Below are positions 3,813 through 22,439 of a stretch of DNA of 27,010 bases, piece by piece. The DNA is from a virus: IMG/VR virus record IMGVR_UViG_3300028299_000108, positions 1-27,010 of that record, one strand, 5' to 3'. Both the position numbers and the translations under genes were made by a program. Each line of letters opens with the position of its first letter. Within the stretch, counting starts at the first letter, position 1. A model generated the notes under the pieces. That model saw only the letters and a program-made list of their open reading frames with translations. It was not told the origin of the DNA and searched no databases.

Positions 3813-4147
3813 TGATTAAAGAGTCAATTCAGGAACTACACGATAGGGTGCACAGGAATACAACGATAGTTAATGGATTAGAGAAGAATGATGCGTTTAA
3901 ACTCTTGGTAGATGACTTCAAGGCTACTGCTAAAAGGTTGGACGATAGCTGGCAGTGGATACAGGAAGAAAAGGTTCTTCAGCAGGCACAGATAACAAAG
4001 ATGGCTACTCTTTCGATAATCAACGCCATTGATAATTACAAGTATGATATAAAGGTAGCAAAGGAAAGATTGGTCGCCTTAGAGAATCAGGATGAGATTC
4101 AAATAGCCGACTTTGATAATGAAGGAGTTGATAATGAGTCAAGTTGA
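3812..4147 (+). CDS. Hypothetical helical protein after portal
   Basis: The product is 111 residues, mostly helical and charged, with likely coiled-coil segments (RLDDSWQWIQEEKVLQQAQ; VAKERLVALENQ) and an acidic C-terminus. It starts at the TAATG junction with the portal, with AAGGGGG upstream, and its end overlaps the SleB-like gene by 14 bases. I do not recognise a family. Its place between portal and scaffold suggests a head-assembly or virion accessory role; this is inferred from context only. Confidence 0.75.
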   Translation: MIKESIQELHDRVHRNTTIVNGLEKNDAFKLLVDDFKATAKRLDDSWQWIQEEKVLQQAQITKMATLSIINAIDNYKYDIKVAKERLVALENQDEIQIADFDNEGVDNESS

Positions 4148-4649
4148 TACTTTCGCTAATTTATTGTTTTCTGAAACCAAAGATTCTAAAGACGCTACTG
4201 GTATTGCCAATGTAGTTCTTAACAGAATGAAACGCCCTGAGAGATTCGGTGAATCATTTGAAGATGTTATTTATGCCCCAAAGCAATTTTCTGGTGTTAA
4301 TACCCCAGAATGGAATAAGGCAGCCAATAAGAAGTTTACGGAAAAAGAAGCAGAGATTTATAAGGATATGTTGCGTATAGCGAATATGGCTTTAAAGGGG
4401 AATTTAGAGGACACTACGGGTGGTGCTGACCATTATGTCAACCTATCCATAGCCCAACCTAAGTTCTCTAAGGTTTATTCTAAAACAGGCAAGATAGGCG
4501 AACATACCTATTACAGCGAGAAACCCGTAAAGCAGACTAAAGCAGATAAGGCTTCATTCAGCGATACATTCTCAGAAGCAAGGAAAGCAGGGAAGAAAGA
4601 GTTCACTTGGAAGGGAAACAGATATAATACAAAACAAGCAGGTGAATGA
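4134..4649 (+). CDS. SleB-type cell wall hydrolase (Hydrolase_2-like)
   Basis: This is predicted to cleave peptidoglycan glycan strands in the manner of SleB lytic transglycosylases. ATG 4134 follows AGGAG with six-base spacing (171 residues). The N-terminal LLFSETKDSKDATG places the likely catalytic Glu at residue 14, followed by the family-like IANVVLNRM. TGGADHYVN (95-103), PKFSKV and IGEHTYYSE (121-129) match the conserved C-terminal half. After the domain comes a tail (about 141-166) with the spacing F-x3-F-x2-AR-x2-G-x4-F-x-W-x-G-x2-Y-x-T, which I know from other phage virion proteins. There is no signal peptide. Lying between portal and scaffold, it is more likely a virion-associated entry hydrolase than the holin-dependent endolysin, although an endolysin role cannot be excluded. 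Confidence 0.85.
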   Translation: MSQVDTFANLLFSETKDSKDATGIANVVLNRMKRPERFGESFEDVIYAPKQFSGVNTPEWNKAANKKFTEKEAEIYKDMLRIANMALKGNLEDTTGGADHYVNLSIAQPKFSKVYSKTGKIGEHTYYSEKPVKQTKADKASFSDTFSEARKAGKKEFTWKGNRYNTKQAGE

Positions 4650-4909
4650 TGAAGAAGAAGTTTAAAAGAATAGAAGATACTCATATGCGTGACGCAGGTG
4701 AGATTGACTTTGAAAAGAAGATTATCAGGGTTAATCCACGCAAGAGAGAGATAGTTAATACTATAGTCCACGAGGAACTACACAAGAAATACCCAAAGAA
4801 AACAGAAAAGTGGATTAAGAAAAAAGCCAAAGAAAAAGAAAGCAAGTTGTCTATATCCCAGACAATCAAACTGCTTAAAAAATATAAAAGAACCAAAACC
4901 GCAAGATAG
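4646..4909 (+). CDS. HExxH mini-protein, putative zinc metallopeptidase-like
   Basis: The product is 87 residues, with a start at 4646 (ATGATG, so 4649 is also possible) overlapping the previous stop as ATGA and AGGTGA upstream. Residues 42-46 read HEELH, preceded by IVNTIV and followed by KKYP. That is the zinc-binding helix pattern of small metallopeptidases, with a beta-strand-like segment (IDFEKKIIRVN) before it, as in ImmA/SprT-like folds. A downstream Glu in a Lys/Glu-rich helix (about 57-67) could be the third ligand. The rest is very basic. Enzymatic activity is unproven; it may only bind metal. The location before the scaffold gene makes a role in head maturation conceivable. Confidence 0.75.
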   Translation: MMKKKFKRIEDTHMRDAGEIDFEKKIIRVNPRKREIVNTIVHEELHKKYPKKTEKWIKKKAKEKESKLSISQTIKLLKKYKRTKTAR

Positions 4910-4934
4910 GGCGTTATCTATCAAAGGGAGGAAT

Positions 4935-5807
4935 ATGTTAGAAAAAGAAAAGGATGTAGTGGAAACTGATGAGTCATCCGCACCAGAAACAGGTGTCGAA
5001 GAACAGGTAGAGGACACTACCGCTGTTACGCCTGAACAGGAAACAACGGAAACACAGCCTACCCCAGAGCAGGGTCAAGCTCCTATAGAAGCTGTGGACG
5101 AGATGGGCGTTCCTTATAAGAACCGTGCCGCCGAATGGCAACGCAAGTTCCAAGAAGTGGCTAATGAGGACACCATAGAAAGAGCTGTAAACAAAGCGTT
5201 ACAGCAACACCAAACACAAGCACCGAAGGAGAATGAATACACCATTAGTGAACTGGAAAAGTTTGCTATGGATAATCCTGAACACAGACCTTGGGTAGAA
5301 GAACAGAAAGCTTCGATTATACAGAAGTCTGTAGCGAAGATTACTGACGACAGGATACAGGCGGTTGAAGTAAAGCAAAGAGAGAACTATGTCCGACAAC
5401 AGTCGGAACAATGGGTGAATAATCATCCACGAGTTCAGGAATGCTTTACAGCAGACCCGCTTGGCAGAAAGATTTGGAACAATGCCCACCCACTAACACA
5501 GTTAATCGGGGGCTATATGCGTGAAGCAGACCTTTCTAAAAGACCTGACGCTTTAGTAATCGCTACAAAACTCGCATTGGCGGATTATATGGACGCACAG
5601 AACACTACAAATCAAAAGCAAGTTAAAACCCTGAAACAAACGCTTAAAAAAACTCAAAAGGCGACTTTGATAGAGGGGGGAACTTCCCAACAAGATGTAG
5701 TTAAGTCCAAGTCAAAGTATAATAAAGCTATGGAAGTTTTTCGAGCCACTGGTAGTAAGGAATCTCTCCAGGATGTGTTGAAAGCTAAATTAGGAATAGA
5801 GGAATAA
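4935..5807 (+). CDS. Scaffold protein
   Basis: The product is 290 residues and starts after a strong site (AGGGAGGAAT-ATG). The first 55 residues or so are Glu/Thr/Pro/Gln-rich and disordered. Then comes GVPYKNRAAEWQRKF, a pattern common in phage scaffolds, followed by long charged helices and a basic KQTLKKTQK region. It lies immediately before the capsid gene, the canonical scaffold position, and ends one base before the capsid ATG. It would template prohead assembly and then leave or be degraded. There is no protease domain within it. Composition and position carry the call. Confidence 0.85.
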   Translation: MLEKEKDVVETDESSAPETGVEEQVEDTTAVTPEQETTETQPTPEQGQAPIEAVDEMGVPYKNRAAEWQRKFQEVANEDTIERAVNKALQQHQTQAPKENEYTISELEKFAMDNPEHRPWVEEQKASIIQKSVAKITDDRIQAVEVKQRENYVRQQSEQWVNNHPRVQECFTADPLGRKIWNNAHPLTQLIGGYMREADLSKRPDALVIATKLALADYMDAQNTTNQKQVKTLKQTLKKTQKATLIEGGTSQQDVVKSKSKYNKAMEVFRATGSKESLQDVLKAKLGIEE

Positions 5808-5808
5808 A

Positions 5809-6696
5809 ATGGCAGTAAAAGCATATAGTTATGATGATGTCGCTATAAGAGAAGATTTGTTAGAGGAAATAAAAAATCTTTCTCCTAGAGAGACACAGCT
5901 GATGTCAGGTCTCGGAACTTCCGCCGCAAAAGGCGTAATGCACGAATATCTGATTAAGGCACTCGGTGCTGTAAAGACTAACGCCTATGTTGAAGGTGCA
6001 GACGCATCTTATGATGTTCAGAACTCCACACGTTTGTTCAACTATACCCAGATATTCTTGGAAGGTTGGCAGATTACGGATACTGATATCGCAGCAAACA
6101 GGGCTGGCGGCGACCGCAAGGCAGAGGAAATTGGCGATTCATTAGCAGAACTGAAGAACGATATAGAGTATGCTCTTATGAGAGGAACTCTTGTAACGGG
6201 CTCTGGTTCAGCGGTTAGAAGTCTTAGGGGCTTAAAAGCGTCTCTATCACTTATCACCAATGCTTCTGGTGCGTCAATGCCTGAGTCAACATTCAACGAT
6301 TATCTTCAGATGGTATGGGACAATGGTAACACAGAAGTTAATGCCATATATTGCCCTATATACGTTAAGAGGAAAATTGCTGGATTTACAGGTGCAGCAA
6401 CGGACAAGAACATAAACGTAGAAGATAAGAGACTTGTGAACTCAGTAGATGTTTACGCATCTGATGCGGCTTCATTCGTTAAACTTTTCAAACACAGATA
6501 TGTAACAGTAGCAGGTGATACAAACTACGACATCGTTGGTATCGATGAGAACTATGCTAAAATAGCATACCTTATCAAACCACACGCTGAAGAAGTTTCA
6601 AGAACTGGTCTGGCACAAAAAGGATTTGTTACTGGCGAACTTACATTGGAAGTTTTACATCCTAATGCAGGTTTCTTAGTAAACAACATCTCTTAA
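5809..6696 (+). CDS. Major capsid protein (SU10/DUF5309-like)
   Basis: This is the shell subunit. The 295-residue protein has the N-terminal pattern of the SU10/DUF5309 capsid family: IREDLLEEIKNLSPRET, then GLGTSAAKG and HEYLIKAL, a YVEGADASYD loop, FLEGWQITDTDIAANRAG, ELKNDIEYALMRGT, and a C-terminal EVLHPNAGF. It starts after AGAGGA with scaffold-to-capsid spacing of one base. It is probably the most highly expressed gene here, and the hairpin directly downstream fits a need to limit read-through. The HK97 fold is expected from the family, not seen directly. Confidence 0.92.
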   Translation: MAVKAYSYDDVAIREDLLEEIKNLSPRETQLMSGLGTSAAKGVMHEYLIKALGAVKTNAYVEGADASYDVQNSTRLFNYTQIFLEGWQITDTDIAANRAGGDRKAEEIGDSLAELKNDIEYALMRGTLVTGSGSAVRSLRGLKASLSLITNASGASMPESTFNDYLQMVWDNGNTEVNAIYCPIYVKRKIAGFTGAATDKNINVEDKRLVNSVDVYASDAASFVKLFKHRYVTVAGDTNYDIVGIDENYAKIAYLIKPHAEEVSRTGLAQKGFVTGELTLEVLHPNAGFLVNNIS

Positions 6697-6703
6697 AGGC
6701 TTC

Positions 6704-6734
6704 GGGGGCGAGCCTAAATCGTCCCCACAATTTT
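6704..6734 (+). terminator. Putative terminator/attenuator hairpin after capsid gene
   Basis: GGGGGCGA (6704-6711) can pair over eight positions, with one G-U, with TCGTCCCC (6719-6726) across a seven-base loop, followed after four bases by TTTT (6731-6734). A second, mutually exclusive stem AGGCT (6697-6701)/AGCCT (6711-6715) overlaps it. The U-tract is short and offset, so partial termination is more likely than a full stop, especially as late genes continue on the same strand with no obvious promoter. It is the only convincing hairpin between genes in the window. Confidence 0.45.
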
Positions 6735-7133
6735 ATGATAATCAAAACTCGGAACAAAATGGATGCCATAAAAGCATTCATCAACCTTTGGATAAAAGAC
6801 CCTACTTGGTATTGTAATAACTGTGGTAGTAAGTATGGGGAGAAACCAAAACCACCATTTAGTTGTTGTGAAGAACCGCAGGTGGGAAGAAACATAGACC
6901 ACACCAAAGGCATTATAAGTCAGAATAAGGTTATCAGGGATACAAGGGCTAATGATTTCGGTTCAAACAAAGCCAAAGATATAAGGTGGGGGGTATCGCT
7001 TCCGCCAGTTCTTTTAAGCGATTTAGAGAAATACTTTAAAACTTATTATAACGAGAAGCTCTTTGAAAACAGGGAAGAAATGCACAAGTTCGCAAAGGCG
7101 TTTCCAGTCTTTGCAACCTGTAAACGGATATAG
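6735..7133 (+). CDS. Zinc-ribbon-like hypothetical protein
   Basis: The product is up to 132 residues. The ATG at 6735 touches the hairpin's T-run and lacks a ribosome site; an in-frame ATG at 6759 (MDAIKAF) is about as likely and gives 124 residues. Residues 25-30 (WYCNNC) and 43-45 (SCC) form a compact Cys cluster of zinc-ribbon type (C27, C30, C44, C45), followed by charged helices (LLSDLEKYFKTYYNEKLF). It sits between capsid gene and cargo island. I do not recognise a named family; an accessory structural or nucleic-acid-binding role is possible. Confidence 0.7.
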   Translation: MIIKTRNKMDAIKAFINLWIKDPTWYCNNCGSKYGEKPKPPFSCCEEPQVGRNIDHTKGIISQNKVIRDTRANDFGSNKAKDIRWGVSLPPVLLSDLEKYFKTYYNEKLFENREEMHKFAKAFPVFATCKRI

Positions 7134-7141
7134 GGGGGTAA

Positions 7142-9976
7142 ATGAAGTTATCTTTAGCGGTGATTGTAAAAGACGAAGCGGAACAAGTTAAAAGAATAAT
7201 CAATGATTATGGTAAGTATTTTGATGAATTAGTCTTTGCTATTGATGACGAAGAAACATTTAAGCAGTTTACCTCTGATGATAAGATTAAGTTCTTTAAA
7301 TATGATTGGTGTAGGGATTTCTCCCATAAAAGAAACTTTCTCGCAAGCAAGGTTACTGGGGATTTTTATGTGAGGATAGACACAGATGATGCCATACTAA
7401 ATCCTGAAAGGGTCTATCCGTTAGCCGAGTACTTGAACAACCATAACTATTCCCTCGCTATGTGTCATTACATCTACTCTAAAGACCAAGACGGAAACCC
7501 CAATGCTGTCCAGCATAGGGAAACCATAATAAAGAATTCCTCTAATATCTACTGGAACAAAAAGATACACGAATGTATCCTGCCAAGAAACCTCACTGGG
7601 TATAAGGTTCATATAGATGAAACACTCAAAATAGACCATATGATAGATTTTGAACACGCACAAAAGTCTATAGTGAGGAACTTAGAATATTTGATAGAAG
7701 AATATAACAGGGATAAAGATAAGACCGACCCAAGAACAATAGCGTATCTCGGCAGGACATTTTTCACCCTAAAGGATTTTGATAAGGCTATATACTTTCT
7801 ACAGAAACACATAGAGGGTTCGGGTTGGGATGATGACCGATATACCTCTTGGTGTTATCTGGCAGAGATATTCAGCCATAAGAAGGACTTTAATCAAGCC
7901 ATAGCGTGTGCTAATGAGGCTCTCTCAGAAAGACCCTCTTACCCAGATGCTTACTTTAAGCTACACGACATTTACTTCCAAATGGGTTCTTGGGAAAAAT
8001 CAATCTCTTGGGGCGAGACTGCCTATACCAAGGAAAAGCCAAGGTCTATGATGGTGTTAGACCCGTCATCTTGGACTTGGAGACCTGCGTTGTCAATGGC
8101 TTATGGCTATATGCAGATGGGCGAGGTAGAGAAGGCGTTTAAGTTCTTCTCATACGGAAAGAAGTTAGCACCGACAGTAAAGTGGGTTAAAGACCACGAT
8201 AAATGGTTTAATGAAGCACTTGATACAAAGAGGTTTTCGGAACAGTTCTACGCTGTATATAAGTTCCTTAAAGATAAATACCCCGATAATTTAAAGGCAT
8301 TAACCGATGCCATACCAGATGAAATTGACACACCAGTTCTGGTTGGTCTTAAAAGGGTTCACTCAAAGATAAAGATTTGGAGTGATAACGAGATTGCTTT
8401 AATTTGTCCTTCATCAGCAGAGCCTTGGTCGCCAGAGTCAATAGAAACTGGTATAGGTGGTTCTGAAGAAGCTGTTATAAGGATTTCCGAACAGTTCGCA
8501 AAGATTGGTTACAAGGTTACGGTATTTAATGACTGCTCTAAAGAGGGTGTCTTCTCTGGCGTTGAGTATAAGAACTGGAAACGGTTCAATGTAAAAGACA
8601 AGTTTAATATCCTTATTTCTTGGAGAGCCAACATATTCAATTATGGGGCTATGGCGAAAAATAGGATTATCTGGTTTCACGACTCCATACCAGCGGACTT
8701 CTTTAGTGAAGATGAACTTAAACTGGTAGATAAGATAGTAGTTCTTTCTCAATACCACAAGACTTTACTCCCCAAGATAGTTCCAGAGGAAAAGATTTAT
8801 GTTTCCAGTAATGGTATTGTTCCAGAGGACTTTCTGAATATAAGCGAAACAAGAAATCCTCACAGGCTTTGTTGGGCAAGTTCTTATGATAGGGGATTAG
8901 AGACTATCCTAAATAACTGGGGAACGATTAGAAAGCAAGTCCCTGACGCAGAGATACATTGTTTCTATGGGTGGAACACTTACGATATACTGGTATCTGA
9001 AGGTCAGCGTAAGGGCAACTTCAAACCCAATATGTTAGAACTGATGTCCCAAGAGGGCGTGTTTGAACACGGCAGGATAGGTCATAAGGAATTACTCAAG
9101 GAATATGCTAAATCAGGTGTATGGGCTTATCCTTGTAACTATAAAGGGGAAATACAATGTATCGCCCTTACAAAGGCGGTGGCAAGTGGTTGTATAGCCG
9201 TAACCAATGACTTCGCTGTGTTGCCAGAGAGAAATCCCTATGTTATCACTACGAATGATAACTTTATCACTAAAGTAATAGATGTTCTAAAAAATGGTTC
9301 AAGTGTTCCATTAAACAGAACAAACTATATTCAAGACAACTCTTGGGAAAAGATAGCAAAGGAATGGGATAAGGACTTGTTTCAGAAAGTATTACCTGTT
9401 GACCTTGTTGACAGGATAGTATGGATGAGGTTAGCAGTTCCCAAAGATAAGTCAGTAGTTGATATAGGTTGTAATGAGGGTCATTTGTTTGCCGACAGAG
9501 ATAGACACAACGTAACAAGTGTTGACATAGATGATTATGACATACCTAACTTCATAAGGGCTAATGCCGAAGAACTACCCATAGAGGATAACAAGTTTGA
9601 TATGGCTGTATTAGGAGAAGTGTTAGAGCATTGTCCTAATCCAGTTAAGGCGATTAAGGAAGCCAAAAGAGTTGCCAAGACGGTTGTGATAACAGTCCCT
9701 TGGGAACAAAGATGGACTTCTGACCTTGACCCACTTGTTCCTATAGAGAATAAACTCCTAAAGGAAAACAAGTCAAGGCTTGAACTGGCTAAACACGGAA
9801 ACCCTAAAGCCAAAGACTTCTATCAGGATGATAACTTTGAACATTTATATCACATAAGATTTTATACTCCAGAGACATTGGAGATAGATATTGTAGAAGC
9901 AGGATTTGAGAAATATCAGATAACTGAAATAAGACGGGATAACTTTGTATGGTTAGGAGCAATTTGTTACGAATAG
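7142..9976 (+). CDS. Multidomain glycosyltransferase: GT2 + TPR + GT-B + methyltransferase
   Basis: The product is 944 residues in four modules. Residues 1-180 are a GT2-like GT-A domain (LSLAVIVKDEAEQ at the start, metal-site-like RIDTDDA at 78-84). Residues 196-345 are TPR-like helical repeats (AYLGRTFFTLKDFDKAI; AEIFSHKKDFNQAI; LHDIYFQMGSWEKSI). Residues 415-750 are a GT-B glycosyltransferase with the donor-side loop GIGGSE (437-442), ASSYDRGLE and the late GEIQCIALTKAVASG segment (669-683). Residues 752-944 are a class I SAM methyltransferase with VDIGCNEG (773-780), VDID (794-797) and LGEVLEHCPNP (824-833). It would transfer two sugars and methylate the product, perhaps capping the chain. 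There is no membrane segment. The start follows a G-rich site (AGGGGGG-TAA-ATG). Substrates are unknown. Confidence 0.9.
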   Translation: MKLSLAVIVKDEAEQVKRIINDYGKYFDELVFAIDDEETFKQFTSDDKIKFFKYDWCRDFSHKRNFLASKVTGDFYVRIDTDDAILNPERVYPLAEYLNNHNYSLAMCHYIYSKDQDGNPNAVQHRETIIKNSSNIYWNKKIHECILPRNLTGYKVHIDETLKIDHMIDFEHAQKSIVRNLEYLIEEYNRDKDKTDPRTIAYLGRTFFTLKDFDKAIYFLQKHIEGSGWDDDRYTSWCYLAEIFSHKKDFNQAIACANEALSERPSYPDAYFKLHDIYFQMGSWEKSISWGETAYTKEKPRSMMVLDPSSWTWRPALSMAYGYMQMGEVEKAFKFFSYGKKLAPTVKWVKDHDKWFNEALDTKRFSEQFYAVYKFLKDKYPDNLKALTDAIPDEIDTPVLVGLKRVHSKIKIWSDNEIALICPSSAEPWSPESIETGIGGSEEAVIRISEQFAKIGYKVTVFNDCSKEGVFSGVEYKNWKRFNVKDKFNILISWRANIFNYGAMAKNRIIWFHDSIPADFFSEDELKLVDKIVVLSQYHKTLLPKIVPEEKIYVSSNGIVPEDFLNISETRNPHRLCWASSYDRGLETILNNWGTIRKQVPDAEIHCFYGWNTYDILVSEGQRKGNFKPNMLELMSQEGVFEHGRIGHKELLKEYAKSGVWAYPCNYKGEIQCIALTKAVASGCIAVTNDFAVLPERNPYVITTNDNFITKVIDVLKNGSSVPLNRTNYIQDNSWEKIAKEWDKDLFQKVLPVDLVDRIVWMRLAVPKDKSVVDIGCNEGHLFADRDRHNVTSVDIDDYDIPNFIRANAEELPIEDNKFDMAVLGEVLEHCPNPVKAIKEAKRVAKTVVITVPWEQRWTSDLDPLVPIENKLLKENKSRLELAKHGNPKAKDFYQDDNFEHLYHIRFYTPETLEIDIVEAGFEKYQITEIRRDNFVWLGAICYE

Positions 9977-10602
9977 GTGCGTTAATACGCTCATATGGAT
10001 TAACTGACTACCTTACAGGGGTTTTGAATAATTACTCTTGGGTTGAAAAGATAGTAGTTATGAACTATCGCTTTAGGGGCGTAAAGGAAAGACCAGATGA
10101 CACGGTTAGTAAGATAGTTCCATTTCGGAACATACTGGTAAAGAGTGGCGAAGACGCACACCAACACGAAGTATTTAATGATGGACTTAAAGAGTTTGAT
10201 GGCTTTGATTATGTGTTTATCTCCGATGCAGATGAGTTTATAAGTCGTGAAGACCAAGATAACCTTATTAAAGGCGTGGCTGGATTTGATGCGGGGACTT
10301 GTAAGATAATAGATTACGCAAGGGATTACAGCCACCGATTTCCAGAGAGAACCCATAAGGCTATTGTGATAGTTAAGCCGAGTGTCAGGTTTTATGATGT
10401 CAGGTGTTTCGCTGGGAACATAAGAAGTTTTGAGTTTATGCATATGCACCATTTAGGTTATGTGTTTAATTTCGATGACCTTAACTGGAAACTTGACTGG
10501 GAAAGGCATTGTGAGGGTGATAGTATAAAGACCTTATTAGGTAAAGCACCCATACCTTGCGAGATGCCAGAAGAGATTAAAACATTACTACCGACAAGAT
10601 GA
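9949..10602 (+). CDS. GT-A-like glycosyltransferase, paralog A
   Basis: The product is up to 217 residues. The N-terminus LLRIGALIRSYGL leads into KIVVMNYRFRG, then ISDADEF (91-97), where the DAD is the likely metal/nucleotide-sugar site, and HHLGYVF (167-173) near the end. Together these indicate a GT2-like transferase without an N-terminal membrane anchor. It is clearly homologous to the gene at 15655-16395: 24 of the first 38 aligned residues are identical. ATG 9949 overlaps the preceding gene by 28 bases. TTG 9964 has a better Shine-Dalgarno and lines up with the paralog's start to within one codon, so 212 residues may be the real length. The acceptor is unknown. Confidence 0.82.
   Translation: MVRSNLLRIGALIRSYGLTDYLTGVLNNYSWVEKIVVMNYRFRGVKERPDDTVSKIVPFRNILVKSGEDAHQHEVFNDGLKEFDGFDYVFISDADEFISREDQDNLIKGVAGFDAGTCKIIDYARDYSHRFPERTHKAIVIVKPSVRFYDVRCFAGNIRSFEFMHMHHLGYVFNFDDLNWKLDWERHCEGDSIKTLLGKAPIPCEMPEEIKTLLPTR
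9955..9959 (+). promoter_or_regulatory. Shine-Dalgarno favouring a TTG start at 9964
   Basis: AGGAG lies four bases before TTG 9964, inside the coding sequence of the preceding gene. The upstream ATG at 9949 has only a weak GGGA at a long distance. Alignment with the paralog, whose product starts MRVGALIKSY, also places the start at this TTG. Confidence 0.5.
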
Positions 10603-11426
10603 TAAAGATACCAGAGTCTTATAATTACGTGTCAGCTTTCATAACATTTGCCTGTAATCTTAAATGTGATTATTGTATAAACAAATACAACGGCTTGTAT
10701 AAATATGAACAAATGTCTGTAGATGATTGGATTAAGGGGCTTAATCGTATCAAGACAAGAAGCGATTTGCCTATTACCATTACTGGCGGTGAACCTACTG
10801 TGTTCAAAGGGTTCTATGATATGATTGACGATATCGGTGGGCGTATTCATATGGACTTACTGACCAATGGTAAGTTTGACCTAAAAGAGTTTATACACAG
10901 AATAAAGCGTTACCAGTTTGACAGGAACGCCAAGTATGCTTCAATAAGATTTTCATATCATGATGGCTACACCAATTTGTTTCAGCTGTTAAGAACTGTA
11001 TTCATACTAAAAAACAGAGGTTATTCAGTAGGTATCTGGGCAGTAGATAAAGGTAAGTTTAAGAATAAAGTTATTCAAGCAATAGCCAAGTTACTGGGTA
11101 TAGACTTTCGCTTAAAAGAGTTCCTTGACAATAAGCACGGACACTATAAATACCCCGAGGGGTTAGATGGTAAGCCCAAGAAGTGCCTGTGTAAACCATC
11201 TGAGATGCTTATAGCACCAGACGGCAGATTATTCCGATGTCATTACGAACTATATCACGGGATAAACTCCTACGGACATATACTGGATAAAGAGGTTAAT
11301 CTACCAATAGATTATATACCTTGTGAAAACTTTGGGCATTGCTCGCCCTGTGATTTAAAATTGAAGCATAATAGATACCAAACCTATGGTCATTGTAGCG
11401 TAGAGATAAAGGAGCTTAATGGATAA
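10599..11426 (+). CDS. Radical SAM enzyme 1
   Basis: The 275-residue protein carries the CX3CX2C [4Fe-4S] cluster motif CNLKCDYC at 19-26, directly after a first strand, and the SAM-binding GGEPT at 63-67, so a radical SAM TIM-barrel is clear. The C-terminal third is Cys-rich (KKCLCKPSEM, LFRCHYE, CENFGHCSPCDLK, GHCS), consistent with a SPASM/twitch-like auxiliary cluster domain. It starts at an ATGA overlap with the preceding gene and overlaps the next by eight bases. The substrate is unknown. In this setting a sugar, nucleotide sugar or a peptide are all possible; no RiPP precursor is seen nearby. Confidence 0.9.
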   Translation: MIKIPESYNYVSAFITFACNLKCDYCINKYNGLYKYEQMSVDDWIKGLNRIKTRSDLPITITGGEPTVFKGFYDMIDDIGGRIHMDLLTNGKFDLKEFIHRIKRYQFDRNAKYASIRFSYHDGYTNLFQLLRTVFILKNRGYSVGIWAVDKGKFKNKVIQAIAKLLGIDFRLKEFLDNKHGHYKYPEGLDGKPKKCLCKPSEMLIAPDGRLFRCHYELYHGINSYGHILDKEVNLPIDYIPCENFGHCSPCDLKLKHNRYQTYGHCSVEIKELNG

Positions 11427-12486
11427 GTATAGGTATGATGGTCATAAGTTACTTTACCATATGGACAGGGTTTACGAGCATTACAGAGACGGTAAAAGGA
11501 TTGCACCTATACACATAGATATAGGGGCTACAAGTGCCTGTAACTCAAACTGTATCTATTGTTACGCAAGACACCAAAAGAAGTCTGGGGAGATTTTAAA
11601 TAGAGATGTTTTTATTAACTTATTATCTCAAGCCCCCGAAGTAGGCATAAAATCAATAGCTATAATAGGTGATGGAGAACCTACATTAAATCCAGCACTC
11701 TATGACGCTGTAAGGGCAGGCAGGGAGAACGGTTTAGATATAAGCGTTGGCACTAATGGTATATTCCTTGATACAGCTAAATTAACAAACTTGTTAAGTA
11801 ACTGCGTATGGATTAGATTTAATCTTTCGGCAGGGACAAGAGATGGATATAAGTTCGTTCACGGCTTTGATAACTGGGAAGTAGTTTCAGAGAACATAAG
11901 AGAAGCTGTCAGGATTAAAAAAGAAAAGGGTTTTAAATGCACCATAGGATTACAAATGGTGTTAGTCCCGCAATGTTTAAATGAGGTAATACCAGAGGCA
12001 GAGTTCGCCATAGACGCAGGGGTAGACTATCTTGTGGTGAAGCAGTATTCAGACCCTATATGTAATGATATGGTTCAGGTTGATAGGGGTTGGTATATAA
12101 GCAATGATACAACTTTAATACTTCAACGAGCCGAAAAGCTGTCAACAAGTGATACTGAGATTATAATTAAATGGGGGTTAATGCGGTTCCACGATAACAA
12201 ACCCTACAAACATTGTGTAGATGTTCCTCTTCTGATAGAGGGTTCAGGAACTGGTAAACTATATCCCTGCGGGTATCACTTTAGAAATGATGAGTATTGC
12301 CTTGGCGATTTGAATAAGAACTCCATTAAAGAGATTATAGAGAGTGACCATTACTGGAACTTGATAGAAAGACTTAGGAATGATTTTGTAGTAGGTAAAG
12401 ATTGTCACGGTGCTTGTAGGCATGATATGACCAATTGCTTTATTTGGGATTACCTACAGCCATTAGAACACGAGAACTTTATATGA
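11419..12486 (+). CDS. Radical SAM/SPASM-like enzyme 2
   Basis: In this 355-residue protein the radical SAM motif is CNSNCIYC (C41, C45, C48), followed by GDGEPTLNP (84-92) in the SAM-binding position and SVGTNGIFL (109-117). The C-terminal region has C266, C284 (LYPCGYH), C294, C329 and C333 (DCHGAC) and C340, typical spacing for SPASM auxiliary clusters. The start ATG 11419 follows AAAGGAG and lies inside the end of radical SAM 1, so the two are probably co-translated. The sequence is distinct from its neighbour, so this is not a recent tandem duplication. The chemistry and substrate cannot be read from sequence. Confidence 0.9.
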   Translation: MDKYRYDGHKLLYHMDRVYEHYRDGKRIAPIHIDIGATSACNSNCIYCYARHQKKSGEILNRDVFINLLSQAPEVGIKSIAIIGDGEPTLNPALYDAVRAGRENGLDISVGTNGIFLDTAKLTNLLSNCVWIRFNLSAGTRDGYKFVHGFDNWEVVSENIREAVRIKKEKGFKCTIGLQMVLVPQCLNEVIPEAEFAIDAGVDYLVVKQYSDPICNDMVQVDRGWYISNDTTLILQRAEKLSTSDTEIIIKWGLMRFHDNKPYKHCVDVPLLIEGSGTGKLYPCGYHFRNDEYCLGDLNKNSIKEIIESDHYWNLIERLRNDFVVGKDCHGACRHDMTNCFIWDYLQPLEHENFI

Positions 12487-12884
12487 GACCGCCCTTTACC
12501 TATACCATGGGAGAGATGATAGACAAGCTATCTATCATATCAAAGAAAGACCAGTTCAATCTTCAGGGTGCAAGGCAAGAACTTGACACTATGATGAAGT
12601 GGCTTAATGACCTTGGGATAGATGCTTACTTAATACTTTCAATCATAAGGATTACCGAAGCCAATATGTCTATATGGAACTTGGAACACGAGTTAAGAAA
12701 CGCAAAAGAGGGTGATATACCATTAGACGAGGTTGGTAGGATAGCTATTAAGGTCAGGGAACACAATAAGGGTAGGGTTAGATATATGAACGAACTTGAC
12801 TCTCTGTGCGGTGCGGAACATATTACAGAGAAGGTTAAACACTTATCGGAAGATATATATGAGAAATTCTATAGAAGAACTTAG
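12483..12884 (+). CDS. DUF4254/DUF6165-like small protein
   Basis: I chose ATG 12483 (133 residues, MRPPFTYTMG), which overlaps the previous stop as ATGA; an upstream non-ATG start in the same frame looks less natural. TMGEMIDKLSIISKK near the start, a middle NMSIWNLEHELR and later IAIKVREHNKGRV resemble small helical proteins of the DUF4254/DUF6165 type, which turn up in LPS and glycan clusters. The fold should be a helical bundle. The biochemical role is not known to me; the family match is from memory and moderate. Confidence 0.65.
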   Translation: MRPPFTYTMGEMIDKLSIISKKDQFNLQGARQELDTMMKWLNDLGIDAYLILSIIRITEANMSIWNLEHELRNAKEGDIPLDEVGRIAIKVREHNKGRVRYMNELDSLCGAEHITEKVKHLSEDIYEKFYRRT

Positions 12885-13539
12885 AAATGAGGTAATGCGT
12901 GTGGCTTGTAAGAATAAAAAAGGTCATATCGCACCCTCTTTGTCGTGTTTAGATATATTAGATGTTCTTTCTTATGACTTTAAAGGTCGTATAATCCTTT
13001 CTAAAGGGCACGGATGTTATGGTTTATATGCTATCTGGGCTGAGAAAGGGCTAATACCGAAAAAGAAATGGGAAAACTTCGAGTTTAAAGGGTGCTTAGA
13101 GGGCTTTGGAACGCTGGGTCATGGGTTACCTATAGCTGTAGGAATAGCTTTTGGGAATAAATTACAGGGTAAAGACGAGCATATATGGTGTGTAGTCGGT
13201 GATGGTGAAATGCAAGAGGGGTCAATGTGGGAAGCCCTGTCGTTTATGTATCATCACGACCTTGATAATATCACAGTTATAGTAGACCATAATAGATTAC
13301 AAGCTATGGACTTTATAGATAATGTTCTATGTCAAAACCTATACTTGAGATTAAGCGGTTGGGGATTTAAGGTTTACTCAATAGATGGACACGACCACCA
13401 CCAGTTAATAGACGCATTTAGTTTAAAGCCCCAGATAATCATAGCCGAGACCTTAAAGGGTAAGGGTTTTAAATGTATGGAAAACAAACCGAAATTTCAC
13501 TTTAGAGTGCCAGATGGTAAACAGAGAAACGATACTTAA
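12859..13539 (+). CDS. Transketolase-like, N-terminal (TPP-binding) subunit
   Basis: This subunit binds thiamine diphosphate and Mg. From ATG 12859 (226 residues; GGAAG six bases upstream, 26-base overlap with the previous gene) it shows the transketolase series: GHIAPSLSCLDIL (H23), ILSKGHG (H51), GTLGHGLP (85-92), the TPP/Mg motif GDGEMQEG (114-121; D115) with its partner DHN (N145), and the C-terminal KGKGFKCMENK. Split transketolases use a separate partner, which is the next gene. It is shorter than usual bacterial N-subunits but has all the core motifs. It would catalyse transfer of a two-carbon ketol unit or a related acyloin reaction; the actual substrates are unknown. Confidence 0.9.
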   Translation: MRNSIEELRNEVMRVACKNKKGHIAPSLSCLDILDVLSYDFKGRIILSKGHGCYGLYAIWAEKGLIPKKKWENFEFKGCLEGFGTLGHGLPIAVGIAFGNKLQGKDEHIWCVVGDGEMQEGSMWEALSFMYHHDLDNITVIVDHNRLQAMDFIDNVLCQNLYLRLSGWGFKVYSIDGHDHHQLIDAFSLKPQIIIAETLKGKGFKCMENKPKFHFRVPDGKQRNDT

Positions 13540-13966
13540 CGAGTTGATACCACACTTTGCCGACCCAAAGTTTTACTTATTGATTTGCGATATGGGTTTT
13601 GGAAAAGTTAATGGGTTGAAAAAGAAATACCCTAACAGAGTTATAAACTGTGGGATAGCAGAACAGGCAACGGTTGGTATAGCTTCTGGTATGGCAGAGT
13701 CAGGATTAAAACCGATAATCTATTCAATAGCCACATTCTTGGTGTTCAGGGCTTTAGAGCAGATTAAGAACGATATAGTTGACAGGAAGATGAACGTCAA
13801 ACTAATAGGTAACGGCTCTGGTGACTTCTTTAAGGATATGGGTAATTGCCATTGGTGTAAAGAAAATGATATCGGATTGATGAATTTAATACGTATGCCG
13901 ATATATAATGGTAAAGAGTTTAATGAGTGGATTAACTCAAGATATGCGGGGTATATGAGGGTATGA
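13514..13966 (+). CDS. Transketolase-like, pyrimidine-domain subunit (short)
   Basis: This 150-residue partner carries the pyrimidine-binding domain: NRVINCGIAEQ holds the catalytic Glu (E50) that activates the TPP aminopyrimidine, followed by GIASGMAESG and IYSIATFLVFRALEQ, then GNCHWCKENDIGL and IRMPIY. The usual C-terminal transketolase domain (about 120 residues) is absent, because the frame ends soon after the pyrimidine domain. It overlaps the N-subunit gene by 26 bases and the following methyltransferase as ATGA. Either the enzyme works without the third domain or it is degenerate. The intact motifs argue for function. Confidence 0.85.
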   Translation: MVNRETILNELIPHFADPKFYLLICDMGFGKVNGLKKKYPNRVINCGIAEQATVGIASGMAESGLKPIIYSIATFLVFRALEQIKNDIVDRKMNVKLIGNGSGDFFKDMGNCHWCKENDIGLMNLIRMPIYNGKEFNEWINSRYAGYMRV

Positions 13967-14601
13967 TAAAAAACTTTATAACTAAAATACACACTTCTAC
14001 AAAGCGTGATTTTGAAGGTCGTATGCTTGATAGCAAAGTAGAGTGTATGAGAGTGGCTCGTAAGTTTGATGTTAACTTCTTTGATGGTGATAGGCGGTTT
14101 GGTTATGGTGGGTATGTTTATGATGGCAGGTGGATACCAGTAGCAAAGAAGCTGATTAAAACATATAAGATAGGCAGTGATAGTCGTGTATTAGATATTG
14201 GATGTGGTAAAGGTTTCTTGGCAAAGGATATACAGGATTTATCTGGTTGCCGTGTAGATGGTTGCGATATTTCAAAGTATGCTTTGGATGAGTGCTTATT
14301 AGAAAAAGGGTTTATATTTAACGCAGGGGTTGATGAGTTAAGAGATAGTTATGATTTAATAATATCCCTAAACACACTCCATAACTTACTATTGCCAAAC
14401 CTTAAACAGGCAATACAGGAAATAAACACACATTCTAAGAAAGCGTATATAGTAGTTGAAAGCTATCGCAACGAGCAGGAACTTTATAATCTTCAATGCT
14501 GGGGATTAACTTGCGAACAGTTTTTAAGACCAGAGGAATGGGAGTTCCTACTTAAAGAATGGGGATATAAAGGCGATTACGAGTTTATCTTCTTCTCCTA
14601 A
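13963..14601 (+). CDS. Class I SAM-dependent methyltransferase
   Basis: The product is 212 residues. Motif I is VLDIGCGKG (76-84), motif II region GCDISKYA (100-107), and the post-strand LIISLNTLHNL completes the Rossmann methyltransferase core. The N-terminal FGYGGYVYDGRW (46-57) is a distinctive block that I recall from methyltransferases in transketolase-containing sugar clusters. That would make the methyltransferase and the split transketolase one functional unit. It starts at an ATGA overlap. The acceptor (sugar hydroxyl, amine or carbon) is unknown. Confidence 0.88.
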   Translation: MIKNFITKIHTSTKRDFEGRMLDSKVECMRVARKFDVNFFDGDRRFGYGGYVYDGRWIPVAKKLIKTYKIGSDSRVLDIGCGKGFLAKDIQDLSGCRVDGCDISKYALDECLLEKGFIFNAGVDELRDSYDLIISLNTLHNLLLPNLKQAIQEINTHSKKAYIVVESYRNEQELYNLQCWGLTCEQFLRPEEWEFLLKEWGYKGDYEFIFFS

Positions 14602-14605
14602 GATA

Positions 14606-15037
14606 TTGATAACGGGTGCTAATGGATACATTGGAAAGTTCCTTTGCGGATACTTATCTAATACCATACCTCTTATGGGTGATATTCTTAACATACCTGA
14701 ATGTGATGTAATAGTTCATTGTGCTGGCAGGAAACCTAAAGAGGGCGTTACATTAGATGATTTTATCAGGGATAATGTAATAACCAATTTAGAGTTTGCT
14801 GAACTCGCTAAGGGGATACCGATAATTTACTTATCAAGCAAGGCGGTGTTTAAACAGACACCCTATGGTGTTACAAAGTTGCTTGGAGAGTTTATACTTA
14901 ATGACCGCTATAAAAAGAATATCAATTTAAGGCTTCCACGTATTGTTGATAAAGACCCTAAAGATGAGGAAATGACCCTTAAACAGGTTGGAGAGTTGAT
15001 TGAGAAAACTATTGACGGTTTGTCCTTCAAGGATTAG
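14606..15037 (+). CDS. Minimal SDR (NAD(P)-dependent epimerase/reductase-like)
   Basis: The product is 143 residues, about half the usual length for an extended SDR. It has the dinucleotide-binding TGANGYIG (3-10), CDVIVHCAG (33-41), catalytic-region Ser in YLSSKAVF (S77/S78), Y87 and K91 in YGVTK, and a late RLPRIV. It probably reduces, oxidises or epimerises a nucleotide sugar. There is no ATG: the family start would be M-KILITG, but the codon there is CCT (14597), so TTG 14606, four bases after the previous stop, is the best start, presumably by re-initiation. The substrate-binding C-terminal part is greatly reduced. Confidence 0.78.
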   Translation: MITGANGYIGKFLCGYLSNTIPLMGDILNIPECDVIVHCAGRKPKEGVTLDDFIRDNVITNLEFAELAKGIPIIYLSSKAVFKQTPYGVTKLLGEFILNDRYKKNINLRLPRIVDKDPKDEEMTLKQVGELIEKTIDGLSFKD

Positions 15038-15677
15038 ACCAGAACGTATCCAAGAAATGTTGGCTTCTTATGATAATACCAAAAGTTCTTGGAACGATAT
15101 TGTTGTTTACGTGGCTGATGACGACCCAAGATTAGAAGATTATAAAAAGACTTTAGTTGGAAGAAACCTGATAATAGGGAAACGCAGAACTTACGTAGAA
15201 GTAAACAATTATATAATGTGCGAGGCATATCCTGATTACCCTTATTATTCGGAGATAAATGATGACCACATATATCACACACCTGAATGGGATAGAATAC
15301 TAATAGACGAAATAGACAGGCGTGGTGGTTGGGGATTTGCTTGTGGTAATACGGGTGGTCTTCCAAGCGGTATGGTTACTTCGGCAAACATCATCAAATC
15401 ATTAGGTTTCTATATCACGCCATTGTTAAAGCAGGCATACTCAGATGATTTCCATAAGGAGCTGGGAGAGGCGTGTGGAATGTTTTATAGGGTTTCAAAT
15501 GTCAACATAGAACACAAGCACTATGTATTCAATAAGGCAAAGGCTGACGAGAATTACCTACACGTAACGGGCAAGGAACATATGGAAGAAAGCCTTGAAA
15601 AGTTTAATTTTTGGAAAACGAATTATAAGCAAGAGGAAGTTAAAAGGATTTTAGATGCGTGTAGGGGCGTTAATTAA
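15000..15677 (+). CDS. GT-A-like glycosyltransferase
   Basis: The product is 225 residues from TTG 15000, supported by GGAG at 14990-14993 with six-base spacing; the start lies 38 bases inside the SDR gene. The N-terminal TVCPSRIRPERIQEML and VYVADDDPRL (D40-D42) match the nucleotide-binding half of GT-A enzymes, and YSEINDDHIY (83-92) supplies a DXD-like metal site, followed by TPEWD. No membrane helix is seen. It is not closely similar to the two paralogous transferases. Donor and acceptor are unknown. Confidence 0.8.
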   Translation: MRKLLTVCPSRIRPERIQEMLASYDNTKSSWNDIVVYVADDDPRLEDYKKTLVGRNLIIGKRRTYVEVNNYIMCEAYPDYPYYSEINDDHIYHTPEWDRILIDEIDRRGGWGFACGNTGGLPSGMVTSANIIKSLGFYITPLLKQAYSDDFHKELGEACGMFYRVSNVNIEHKHYVFNKAKADENYLHVTGKEHMEESLEKFNFWKTNYKQEEVKRILDACRGVN

Positions 15678-16395
15678 GTCTTACCATTCAACACAGTTTT
15701 TACCACTCGTTTTAAAACAGTATGAGTGGGTTGATAAGATTGTTGTTATGAACTATAGGTTCAAAACTGTTGAACCAACTACCGATGATACTATTGAAAT
15801 TTGTAAAAAGTTCGGTCATCCTAATTTGAGTGTTTATAGTGGAGATGATTTAGAACAACACGATATACTTAATGTCGGTCTTGATTTGTTAAAGGGTTGT
15901 GATTTGGTCTGGATAGGTGACGCTGATGAAATAATACTCCCAGAAGACCAGAACATAATTATGAACCGTATGGCTGACAGGAGACCATTACACGGATTAG
16001 CACAATACGCAACTTGTAAAATGGTGGATTACAATGGAGACCTTTATCACGCATCACCACAGCGACCTTATGATGTTATGGTTATGGCTGTTCCCTCTGC
16101 TGTAAGATTTTCAAAAATAAGGATGATTGAAAAGAATATACACGAAGCAAAAATGAGTTACGCAACAGTTCATCACTTAGGTTTATGTTTAGACCCAAAC
16201 GTTATAGATTGGAAAGCTGGGTGGGAGTATAAGGAAGAGGGACACAGTAAAGAGAAACTATTAAGTGATTGGGCTGTTAGAAGAGAGGTAGTTCCACCAG
16301 TTGGATTAGTGGAATATATAAATAGTTATACTCTTATCAAGAAAAGCACTTGGGGCTATAGAATAGAGAAGGTTCCATATAAGGAGAATGTATGA
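15655..16395 (+). CDS. GT-A-like glycosyltransferase, paralog B
   Basis: The 246-residue protein is a homolog of the 9949-10602 product. Shared blocks are GALIKSY, KIVVMNYRFK (28-37), IGDADEI (87-93) and VHHLGL (172-177). It is longer at the C-terminus (about 30 residues, VEYINSYTLIKK onward). It overlaps the preceding gene by 23 bases, and its own stop is joined to the tail adaptor start as ATGA, so translation of the island flows straight into tail genes. It may act on a later sugar of the same chain as paralog A. Confidence 0.85.
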   Translation: MRVGALIKSYHSTQFLPLVLKQYEWVDKIVVMNYRFKTVEPTTDDTIEICKKFGHPNLSVYSGDDLEQHDILNVGLDLLKGCDLVWIGDADEIILPEDQNIIMNRMADRRPLHGLAQYATCKMVDYNGDLYHASPQRPYDVMVMAVPSAVRFSKIRMIEKNIHEAKMSYATVHHLGLCLDPNVIDWKAGWEYKEEGHSKEKLLSDWAVRREVVPPVGLVEYINSYTLIKKSTWGYRIEKVPYKENV

Positions 16396-17303
16396 ATAAG
16401 TCGTTTTCAGTAATAAAAACAAATATCGGTGCTGAGGTAATTGATACCTCATCTGCTTTCGCCACCATAATAGGCAGGTTTGTAAACAGACGGTATTTCC
16501 AGATACTCAGGTCTATAAACTGGAGAAACATAAACGATGCCTATACGTTTGATACTGTGGTAGGGACTCAGAGATATGTGTTGCCAGATGATTTCGGCAA
16601 AGAGATTAGTTGTACGGATACTACCAACTCTGGTGAGCTGTCCAAGTTTCAGATTGATGAACTATATAGCACATACAAAACGATAACTGGCACAGGCAGT
16701 ATAGAGAGATACGCTATCGTAGACAGCCCAGTTCAGGCACAGCCATCAGCGGCATCTACGCTGTCAATCGTATCATCTTCTGCAAGCGATACATCGCAGA
16801 CCATTTTAATAAGGGGTATATCATCTGGGGTTGAGGTGTATGAGTCAGTAACTCTTACTGGAATTTCGGCTGCAACATCAGCAAACTCCTATACAAGAAT
16901 AAAAGGTATTTCAAAGAGTGGTGCAACGGCAGGTTATGTAACTATCACTTCAAATTCGGCTGCGGTAACAAACGCTGTCATACCATTAGAGACTTTAGAG
17001 ACAAGATATAAGATACTTATAATCCATTACGTTCCGACATCTGTTTCTACAATAGCACTACCTTATATCGTAAACCCTCTTCCGTTATCACAGGACTACG
17101 ACTACCCAGTAATTGACATAGCGGACTTAATAGAGATAGGTGCTATCGCTGATTGTTTAAGGTACAAACGCCAATTCTCTAAAGCTAACGTGTATGAAGT
17201 GAACTATACACATCAATTAAATGATTATATATTTGATAAAGAAAATCAACCCAACGAGGTAATACAGTTCTCGCCTCAAGGATACTCAAGGGATACAGTA
17301 TAA
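16392..17303 (+). CDS. Head-tail adaptor/connector protein
   Basis: The product is 303 residues. Helical N-terminal FVNRRYFQILRSINW (30-44) followed by YTFDTVVGTQRYVLPDDF (51-68) is the pattern of gatekeeper or tail-tubular-A-like adaptors that sit under the portal. Residues 117-195 form a Ser/Thr/Ala-rich, beta-strand-like insert (SSSASDTSQTILIRG; ESVTLTG). The adaptor signature resumes after this with helices near 245-280. The next gene begins at the TAATG stop/start junction. The function call rests on the N-terminal pattern and gene order. Confidence 0.75.
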   Translation: MNKSFSVIKTNIGAEVIDTSSAFATIIGRFVNRRYFQILRSINWRNINDAYTFDTVVGTQRYVLPDDFGKEISCTDTTNSGELSKFQIDELYSTYKTITGTGSIERYAIVDSPVQAQPSAASTLSIVSSSASDTSQTILIRGISSGVEVYESVTLTGISAATSANSYTRIKGISKSGATAGYVTITSNSAAVTNAVIPLETLETRYKILIIHYVPTSVSTIALPYIVNPLPLSQDYDYPVIDIADLIEIGAIADCLRYKRQFSKANVYEVNYTHQLNDYIFDKENQPNEVIQFSPQGYSRDTV

Positions 17304-21507: not shown

Positions 21508-22230
21508 ATGGGCGGCGGCGATACAACGGTTCAAACACCTACACCCCCTGCGGCTCCAACAACCCAAGAATCTATAGACGCTTGGATAGAGAGTATGCCA
21601 CAGGTATACGAAACTCAAATGCAGTATGCCCCTATGCAGGCACAGCAGCAGGTGGAACTTGCTCAACAGTATGCACAACCTATGGGTCAGGCTATGTTAT
21701 CAGCCCAAAGAGCTATGTATCCTGAAGAGTATAAGCTATCAGATTTAGCTTCTCAACAGGCATTAGAGGGTATGCAGGGGCAACTTCCTGATTGGCAGAA
21801 ACAACAGTATCAAAGTGATTTAAGGGCTAACCTTGGGACAAGTGCAGGTTCTCCTATGGGTGCTGATTATATGTCAAGGGGTATGATGCAACAGCAACAG
21901 GAATACCAGAACTACTACAGGAACTTAGGTCTTTCTATTGCAGGCAAACAACCTATAGCTGGGGCTCAACAGCCACAGACAACTGATTATATGAGTGGAT
22001 ACACTCCACAAGGCGTTATGAGTTCTATGCAACAGGGTTATGGAAATTATGCTGGTCTTTATGGGTCTATGTATGGTGCTAACGCACAAATGGCAATGCA
22101 ACCAAGTCCGTTTGGACAGATAATGGGTGGTCTTGCAGGTGGTCTCGGAACTGGTATAGGGACTGGTATGGGGTATAAGATGATGTCAAGCCAACGCTAC
22201 AAAACCAACATAAGACCTTGGAAGCAGTAA
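21508..22230 (+). CDS. Virion protein with N-terminal part of an S74 chaperone domain
   Basis: The product is 240 residues, start supported by AGGAG. The N-terminus MGGGDTTVQTP leads into a Gln/Met/Tyr-rich body (AQQQVELAQQYAQP; RGMMQQQQEYQNYYRN), then a glycine-rich hydrophobic stretch (GGLAGGLGTGIGTGMG, about 207-222) that could insert in a membrane. It ends SSQRYKTNIRPWKQ. S227 and K232 fit the S-x2-R-x-K self-cleavage dyad of endosialidase-type (peptidase S74) intramolecular chaperones, but the rest of that domain is encoded in the -1 frame (22218-22439). An internal or tail-tip protein is likely. Confidence 0.8.
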   Translation: MGGGDTTVQTPTPPAAPTTQESIDAWIESMPQVYETQMQYAPMQAQQQVELAQQYAQPMGQAMLSAQRAMYPEEYKLSDLASQQALEGMQGQLPDWQKQQYQSDLRANLGTSAGSPMGADYMSRGMMQQQQEYQNYYRNLGLSIAGKQPIAGAQQPQTTDYMSGYTPQGVMSSMQQGYGNYAGLYGSMYGANAQMAMQPSPFGQIMGGLAGGLGTGIGTGMGYKMMSSQRYKTNIRPWKQ

Positions 22231-22439
22231 ATATAATAAAACAGCTACAAGCTGTCAGGTTTGATTGGAAAGACACGGGTAAAGCTGATATAAGTCTTAT
22301 TGCCGAAGAAGTGGCAAAGATTATACCTGAGGCTGTGTATTATAATGATAGAGGACAAATAGAGGGGCTAAGAATAGTTCCAATTATGGCAATAATGATT
22401 GAAGCAATAAAGGAATTAAGTGAGGTGAAAGATGAGTAA
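22218..22439 (+). CDS. C-terminal part of the S74 chaperone domain, -1 frame
   Basis: The product is 73 residues from TTG 22218, with no ribosome site. The text LEAVNIIKQLQAVRFDWK, ISLIAEEVAKIIPEAV, then IVPIMAIMIEAIKEL is the remaining two thirds of an S74 domain and continues the preceding frame's KTNIR almost without a break. Adding one C in the CC at 22216-22217 would restore a single protein of about 310 residues (KTNIRPLEAVN). It is best read as the 3' part of one frameshifted gene. It overlaps the next gene by eight bases. Confidence 0.75.
   Translation: MEAVNIIKQLQAVRFDWKDTGKADISLIAEEVAKIIPEAVYYNDRGQIEGLRIVPIMAIMIEAIKELSEVKDE

Follow-up and report, generated by a model that had tools for sequence, protein, structure and literature searches.

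In mycobacteriophages, capsid and tail-tube proteins bear glycans made by the phage (PMC12619734, PMC12363180), and Che8, Corndog and Myrna encode glycosyltransferases that have been proposed or shown to glycosylate capsid or tail proteins (PMC12363180, PMC12619734). The Che8 glycosyltransferases gp108-110 map to the right end of the genome rather than to the virion operon, in a stretch where neither a radical SAM nor a TPP enzyme is annotated. The host recognition cluster of pelagimyophages and the LPS genes of cyanophages form a hypervariable glycosyltransferase region that adjoins the tail-fibre genes of these T4-like phages and has been read as modifying the host O-chain, with radical-SAM cassettes added in one pair of phages (PMC7029224). 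The gtr-type serotype-converting (O-antigen) module employs a bactoprenol glycosyltransferase and a membrane flippase. Of the enzymes that act on proteins or peptides, GmaR, the Listeria flagellin O-GlcNAc transferase, attaches GlcNAc to flagellin and consists of a glycosyltransferase domain followed by TPR repeats (PMC9638930); the peptide S-glycosyltransferases SunS and ThuS likewise have a GT2 domain followed by TPR-like helices.

The locus described here shares phage-encoded glycosyltransferases with the mycobacteriophages and a variable glycosyltransferase content with the pelagimyophage and cyanophage region, but it differs from the latter in lying between the capsid and tail-adaptor genes and in having a constant first gene, GT0. 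The bactoprenol glycosyltransferase and flippase of the gtr-type module are absent. GT0 has the domain order of GmaR, SunS and ThuS, but unlike them it has an additional GT-B domain and often a methyltransferase domain, and it has no antirepressor domain.

An eleven-gene island in the virion operon

The window, the whole stretch of DNA analysed, is a 27 kb (27,010 nt) virus fragment, IMG/VR record IMGVR_UViG_3300028299_000108. Its gene order is TerL (phrog_38), portal (phrog_1216), two small genes flanking a cell-wall hydrolase, a scaffold-like protein, capsid (phrog_1328), g8, the island, tail adaptor (phrog_6013) and more tail-region genes, the flanking virion genes being identified by these phrog matches. 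A sequence-only reading had placed eleven co-directional genes with near-continuous overlaps at 7142-16395, between capsid and adaptor, the last joined to the adaptor by ATGA; the open reading frames, all on the + strand, and their junctions agreed exactly. An 8 bp gap precedes GT0, the junctions among the eleven genes are -28, -4, -8, -4, -26, -26, -4, +4, -38 and -23 bp, and the last gene, GTc, overlaps the adaptor by 4 bp (ATGA coupling). From GT0 through to the adaptor, genes therefore overlap at 10 of 11 junctions, the remaining one being the 4 bp gap. The features are given below, where L002 and L205 are related phage contigs treated later.

5809..6696, + strand: major capsid protein, left anchor of the slot (phrog_1328, E 3e-55; upstream of GT0 in 32 of 32 contigs)
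6704..6726, + strand: hairpin right after the capsid stop
6735..7133, + strand: g8, conserved 132 aa protein between capsid and GT0 (precedes GT0 in 32 of 32 contigs)
7142..9976, + strand: GT0, proposed protein-glycosylating enzyme with GT2 (~1-180), TPR (~190-380), GT-B (~410-750) and methyltransferase (~765-925) regions (Pfam, GmaR match, model)
9949..10602, + strand: GTa, putative glycosyltransferase (DADE motif), paralogue of GTc, without a direct family match
10599..11426, + strand: rSAM1, radical SAM protein (PF04055, E 1e-10; L002 counterpart 62% identical)
11419..12486, + strand: rSAM2, radical SAM/SPASM protein (PF04055, E 1e-15; SPASM, E 9e-6; bacterial relatives 37-46%)
12483..12884, + strand: DUF4254-like all-helical protein, function unassigned, accompanying radical SAM genes (87-89% identical to L002; left unnamed in the sequence-only reading)
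12859..13539, + strand: TKN, N-terminal (TPP-binding) half of a transketolase (split-chain transketolase 6yak, E 9e-33; SKGHG and GDG...N motifs)
13514..13966, + strand: TKC, pyrimidine-binding half of a transketolase (PF02779, E 7e-9; 6yaj, E 6e-12; GIAEQ glutamate present)
13963..14601, + strand: class I methyltransferase (Pfam/family match)
14606..15037, + strand: short epimerase-type SDR, only the Rossmann part with YxxxK, TTG start uncertain (PF01370, E 3e-7; phrog_540)
15000..15677, + strand: GTb, glycosyltransferase (phrog_14945, E 2e-29)
15655..16395, + strand: GTc, putative glycosyltransferase (L205 homologue matches Glyco_tranf_2_4, E 1e-3)
16392..17303, + strand: tail adaptor, right anchor of the slot (phrog_6013; after the cassette in all 17 genomes or contigs reaching that far)

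The enzyme families proposed from the letters (glycosyltransferases, two radical SAM enzymes, a split transketolase, two methyltransferase domains and an SDR) were recovered for most genes. Weaker points are TKC, which matches its family but is without a C-terminal domain, and GTa (9949-10602) and GTc (15655-16395), which gave no glycosyltransferase match of their own in family searches. The glycosyltransferase call for these two comes from a DxDE motif together with weak matches of their relatives to glycosyltransferase family 2 models, and profile comparison with GT0 gave no support for it. Sigma-70-like promoters inside the island were not in excess over shuffled sequence.

The arrangement is not due to chance. 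It was found that L002, an independent phage from a different metagenome, has the whole eleven-gene order between the same virion genes, with both borders present and about 48-89% protein identity, and that between the window and L002 the second codon position is the most conserved and the third the least in all 11 island genes, as under purifying selection. Fourfold sites are near saturation in most of these genes (0.37-0.68). Glycan-building enzymes inside a virion operon are thus a property of this phage lineage, as the L002 order and the scan with GT0 indicate. A chimeric assembly with joins at about 7140 and 16395 was rejected because L040, at 95% nucleotide identity to the window, runs unbroken over 483-7835 and across the left border; in addition, L002 contains both borders, and 9.7 kb from the left part of the L002 contig is repeated at 99.98% in L052, from yet another metagenome. 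L002 also has a LicD domain at the N terminus of its class I methyltransferase gene and a cytidylyltransferase fused to GTc, both absent from the window; these may cooperate, one making a nucleotide-activated group that the other would transfer.

A fixed slot with changing content

Relatives were gathered by a scan with GT0, which returned 32 contigs, and in every one of them the capsid gene and g8 directly precede GT0. No family match for g8 was obtained. The adaptor is reached after the slot in 16 contigs (including the window; L049 and L050 are near copies) and in MW202743, a complete circular genome of 42,585 bp deposited as Podoviridae in which the slot is present. Across these, the stretch from GT0 to the adaptor ranges from -46 bp to 7.7 kb and encodes differing enzymes: GT0 is alone in L200 (-46 bp), 1-3 genes occupy about 0.65-2 kb in L211, L219, L049, L205 and L206, and the stretch is 6-7.7 kb in the window, L002, L046, L047, L199 and MW202743. 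The sequence-only account of the island was thus confirmed and exceeded: the slot is fixed and its content is variable. A fixed slot between capsid and tail genes, within which sets of sugar enzymes are exchanged, is a broader finding than the island alone, and its combination of a constant transferase with radical SAM/TPP cassettes is unusual.

The kinds of cassette are none, two glycosyltransferases, a GDP-mannose-dehydratase/aminotransferase/LicD set, a second radical-SAM plus TPP-enzyme set, and the set of the window. Nearly all identifiable cassette genes are of glycan type, and GT0 is always first. The cassette of L046 and L047 contains genes for GT10-like and GT2 glycosyltransferases, a GDP-mannose dehydratase, a cupin, a DegT aminotransferase, a cytidylyltransferase and LicD, and that of L042 includes a sulfotransferase. 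L199 has radical SAM, DUF4254-like, B12-radical SAM and aminotransferase genes and an E1-alpha/beta TPP pair, which, judged by these family assignments, is a second and different radical SAM plus TPP cassette in the same slot. A hydrophobic protein of 69-72 aa in the dehydratase cassette (L046 14195-14413, L047 14135-14344), with no Pfam match, was the sole apparent membrane protein noticed in a cassette.

On the portal tree, the dehydratase/GT10 cassette requires at least 3 changes on well-supported branches, and the window clade (L040, L041) is apart from L052, which represents the L002 phage and whose neighbours L054, L212 and L223 bear other cassettes. Therefore, the cassettes appear to have moved between backbones or to have been lost many times. 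Near relatives retain their cassette: L219 and L211 differ by one gene, and the L205 and L206 cassettes, which at first impression seemed unrelated, consist of homologous genes. The locus is not universal in the lineage, since L045 keeps the capsid-g8 pair with GT0 not adjacent. After g8, L045 (7395-9421) has relatives of the late genes of the window (25722 onward), so that it is either rearranged or slotless. A second circular podovirus genome, MW202801, has radical SAM, glycosyltransferase, PhyH, methyltransferase and NodB genes after the capsid and a small gene, and no GT0 match was seen in it. The phage lineage is uncultured and probably short-tailed; a search for a host by portal matches, in ten genomes with rSAM2 relatives and 384 genomes of the Omnitrophota phylum, gave weak partial hits only.

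The hairpin after the capsid gene recurs at the same place, with differing sequence, in 10 of 12 relatives (z of about -2.8 to -5.6, with one at -1.7, against shuffles), and is absent or weak in L002 and L044. It is perhaps an attenuator or a stabiliser of the mRNA end. A terminator is located after gene 10 of T7, and by analogy the hairpin may lower the expression of the enzymes relative to the capsid.

The radical SAM and TPP-enzyme module

Both rSAM1 and rSAM2 contain the CxxxCxxC motif and match PF04055 above the cut-off. TKN and TKC retain the TPP-binding GDG...N motif and the catalytic glutamate, as in the Carboxydothermus split-chain transketolase (6yaj/6yak), which is also a two-gene enzyme. 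In contrast to that enzyme, TKC stops at 150 aa, compared with 341 in the solved split enzyme, and lacks the third domain, its match being to the pyrimidine domain alone. For the DUF4254-like protein, 7 of 12 members match DUF4254, at scores below threshold, and a fold search gave no significant match. Recent transfer as the source of its 87-89% identity to L002 was rejected, as fourfold sites in this gene are as saturated as elsewhere.

The sequence-only reading had not recognised radical SAM and TPP chemistry in a phage structural operon as a described system. No paper on a radical SAM plus transketolase set in a phage virion operon was found in the literature searched, which was mostly without subscription journals. 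The enzymes themselves are not tied to virion genes: they are linked to them in L002 and in the slot lineage, whereas in two other phages (L029, L030) the radical SAM, DUF4254-like and transketolase set lies among non-structural genes, and in a third (L008) radical SAM and DUF4254-like genes accompany a TPP-enzyme-like gene away from the virion genes. Among INPHARED phages there was no match to rSAM1 or to the DUF4254-like protein.

Bacterial clusters pair related enzymes. Relatives of rSAM2 (37-46%) lie near a TPP enzyme pair, a cytidylyltransferase and an SDR in Methylomonas, Aquitalea, Magnetococcales and Omnitrophota, and one Omnitrophota cluster (L167) has relatives of rSAM1, TKN, TKC and rSAM2 inside 6 kb. 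These clusters differ from the island in being chromosomal, in an N-terminal extension of rSAM2 (in those read), in having several TPP pairs of E1 type rather than transketolase type, and in their isomerase and kinase genes. From these relatives, and from the other phages that carry it outside the virion genes, we conclude on sequence comparison that the module is not a phage invention. The clusters of methanotrophs and other bacteria (L120-L178), with two radical SAM genes, a TPP pair, an isomerase, a kinase/cytidylyltransferase and an SDR, look like an uncharacterised sugar pathway. In the window, the two radical SAM proteins, the shortened split transketolase and the DUF4254-like protein that accompanies them form an uncharacterised enzyme set that may yield a new sugar.

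Proposed function and features of the flanks

In sequence, residues 1-146 of GT0 resemble the GmaR glycosyltransferase domain (E 1.5e-11), and the best fold matches of a model of residues 1-410 (pLDDT 88.8) are SunS and ThuS (E 4e-17, TM 0.59; TM 0.70 on target for a truncated SunS). The DxDD motif is invariant in 7 sequences, and Pfam and the model agree on a GT2 domain with DxD followed by TPR, the GmaR/SunS type of architecture. GT0 therefore resembles enzymes that glycosylate proteins or peptides, as predicted from the GmaR match and the SunS/ThuS fold. TPR-GT2 proteins are widespread in viruses, with acceptors mostly untested, so that this resemblance is class evidence for a protein acceptor rather than proof. 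No homology was detected between GT0 and the Che8 virion glycosyltransferases (best E 0.1).

No membrane segment was found in any of the 11 island proteins, and a family search of them gave no bactoprenol glycosyltransferase, flippase or polymerase. The acceptor is therefore most likely cytoplasmic, for example a virion protein, and together with the resemblance of GT0 to protein and peptide transferases this leads us to favour, with moderate confidence, an island that glycosylates a virion protein of the same operon, its transferase constant and its tailoring cassette exchangeable. The first candidates for the acceptor would be g8 and the capsid because their position is constant. GT0 would be expressed late, along with the virion genes; its GT2 and TPR part would bind the virion protein and attach the first sugar, after which the GT-B and methyltransferase domains would extend and cap the glycan. 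The cassette of the window would make and add a rare sugar: TKN and TKC, as one TPP enzyme, would make or move a carbon-carbon bond, rSAM1 and rSAM2 would rearrange, deoxygenate or epimerise the sugar, the SDR would act on it as a reductase or epimerase, methylation would fall to the methyltransferase, and GTa, GTb and GTc would add the finished product. A cassette swap would alter the particle surface with capsid and tail unchanged. We infer the protein acceptor from fold and sequence class, and likewise infer which virion protein it is, the sugar, the order of steps, the benefit and the radical-SAM/TPP chemistry.

Glycosylation of a virion protein is supported by the position of GT0, the variety of cassettes, purifying selection, the ATGA coupling to the adaptor and the mycobacteriophage precedent. 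Against it stand a lineage known from sequence, L045, the wide occurrence of TPR-GT2 proteins, the lack of Che8 homology and the membrane-type glycosyltransferases that accompany the radical SAM/transketolase module in other phages. A stronger form is that this is a dedicated system for diversifying a particle glycan, with a GmaR/SunS-like transferase coupled to the capsid gene and a swappable cassette, here an undescribed radical SAM plus transketolase-type TPP sugar route; this we put forward tentatively, as a possibility with less than even chances.

The unusual glycan of the sequence-only reading had been assigned to either the particle or the host surface, and the evidence from GT0 and the missing lipid-carrier steps leans to the particle. 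That the island instead alters the surface glycan of the infected host (LPS, capsule or S-layer glycan) late in infection, through host lipid carriers and export, and so blocks superinfection or frees progeny, we consider unlikely. The variable regions of pelagimyophages and cyanophages are interpreted in this way, including the pair that differs by radical-SAM cassettes (PMC7029224), and in bacteria, relatives of rSAM2 and of the TPP enzyme belong to what look like clusters for nucleotide sugars or surface glycans, alongside isomerase, kinase/cytidylyltransferase and SDR genes. By inspection, some other phages with the radical SAM/transketolase module also bear apparent membrane-type glycosyltransferases, pointing to a role at the surface in those phages. 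The window island, however, encodes none of the membrane or lipid-carrier functions listed above, GT0 is like protein and peptide transferases, and the position in the virion operon is retained even where GT0 is alone (L200).

A modification of phage DNA, or of a secreted peptide or other small molecule (such as a glycocin-like product or a signalling glycan), is less probable still. Glycosylation of phage DNA is known, SunS and ThuS act on small peptides, and peptide maturation is frequent among radical SAM/SPASM proteins; but no precursor-peptide gene, exporter or base-modifying enzyme was seen in the island, and the N terminus of GT0 also matches a flagellin-glycosylating enzyme by sequence. 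Least probable is that mobile genes of host origin insert in the slot at large, without a common function, and that glycan genes have collected there through chance of ancestry, since the varying content, its scatter on the portal tree and an island GC slightly below that of the flanks would fit it, but the near-uniform glycan type of the identifiable genes, the constant first place of GT0, the purifying selection and the tight gene overlaps would not.

If virion glycosylation is correct, these phages would change their outer chemistry through exchange of one cassette with the particle proteins constant, as bacteria swap O-antigen clusters, and the slot would be a compact model for particle glycosylation in water and sediment, where antibodies do not act.

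Three features of the flanks were also observed. The adaptor (16392-17303) has an extra Ser/Thr-rich stretch of about 90 residues, which is also present in L047, L205 and L206, absent from L002 and L049, and independent of cassette type; it could be a glycan acceptor or a binding domain. A gene of an endolysin family (cell-wall hydrolase-like; 4146-4649) sits between portal and scaffold, not in a lysis module. At 21508-22439, a C-terminal chaperone-like stretch, which by eye resembles the S74 endosialidase chaperone, is spread over the overlapping frames g28 and g29; the same split recurs at the same position in L220, so that instead of an error it may reflect a frameshift or a genuine split.
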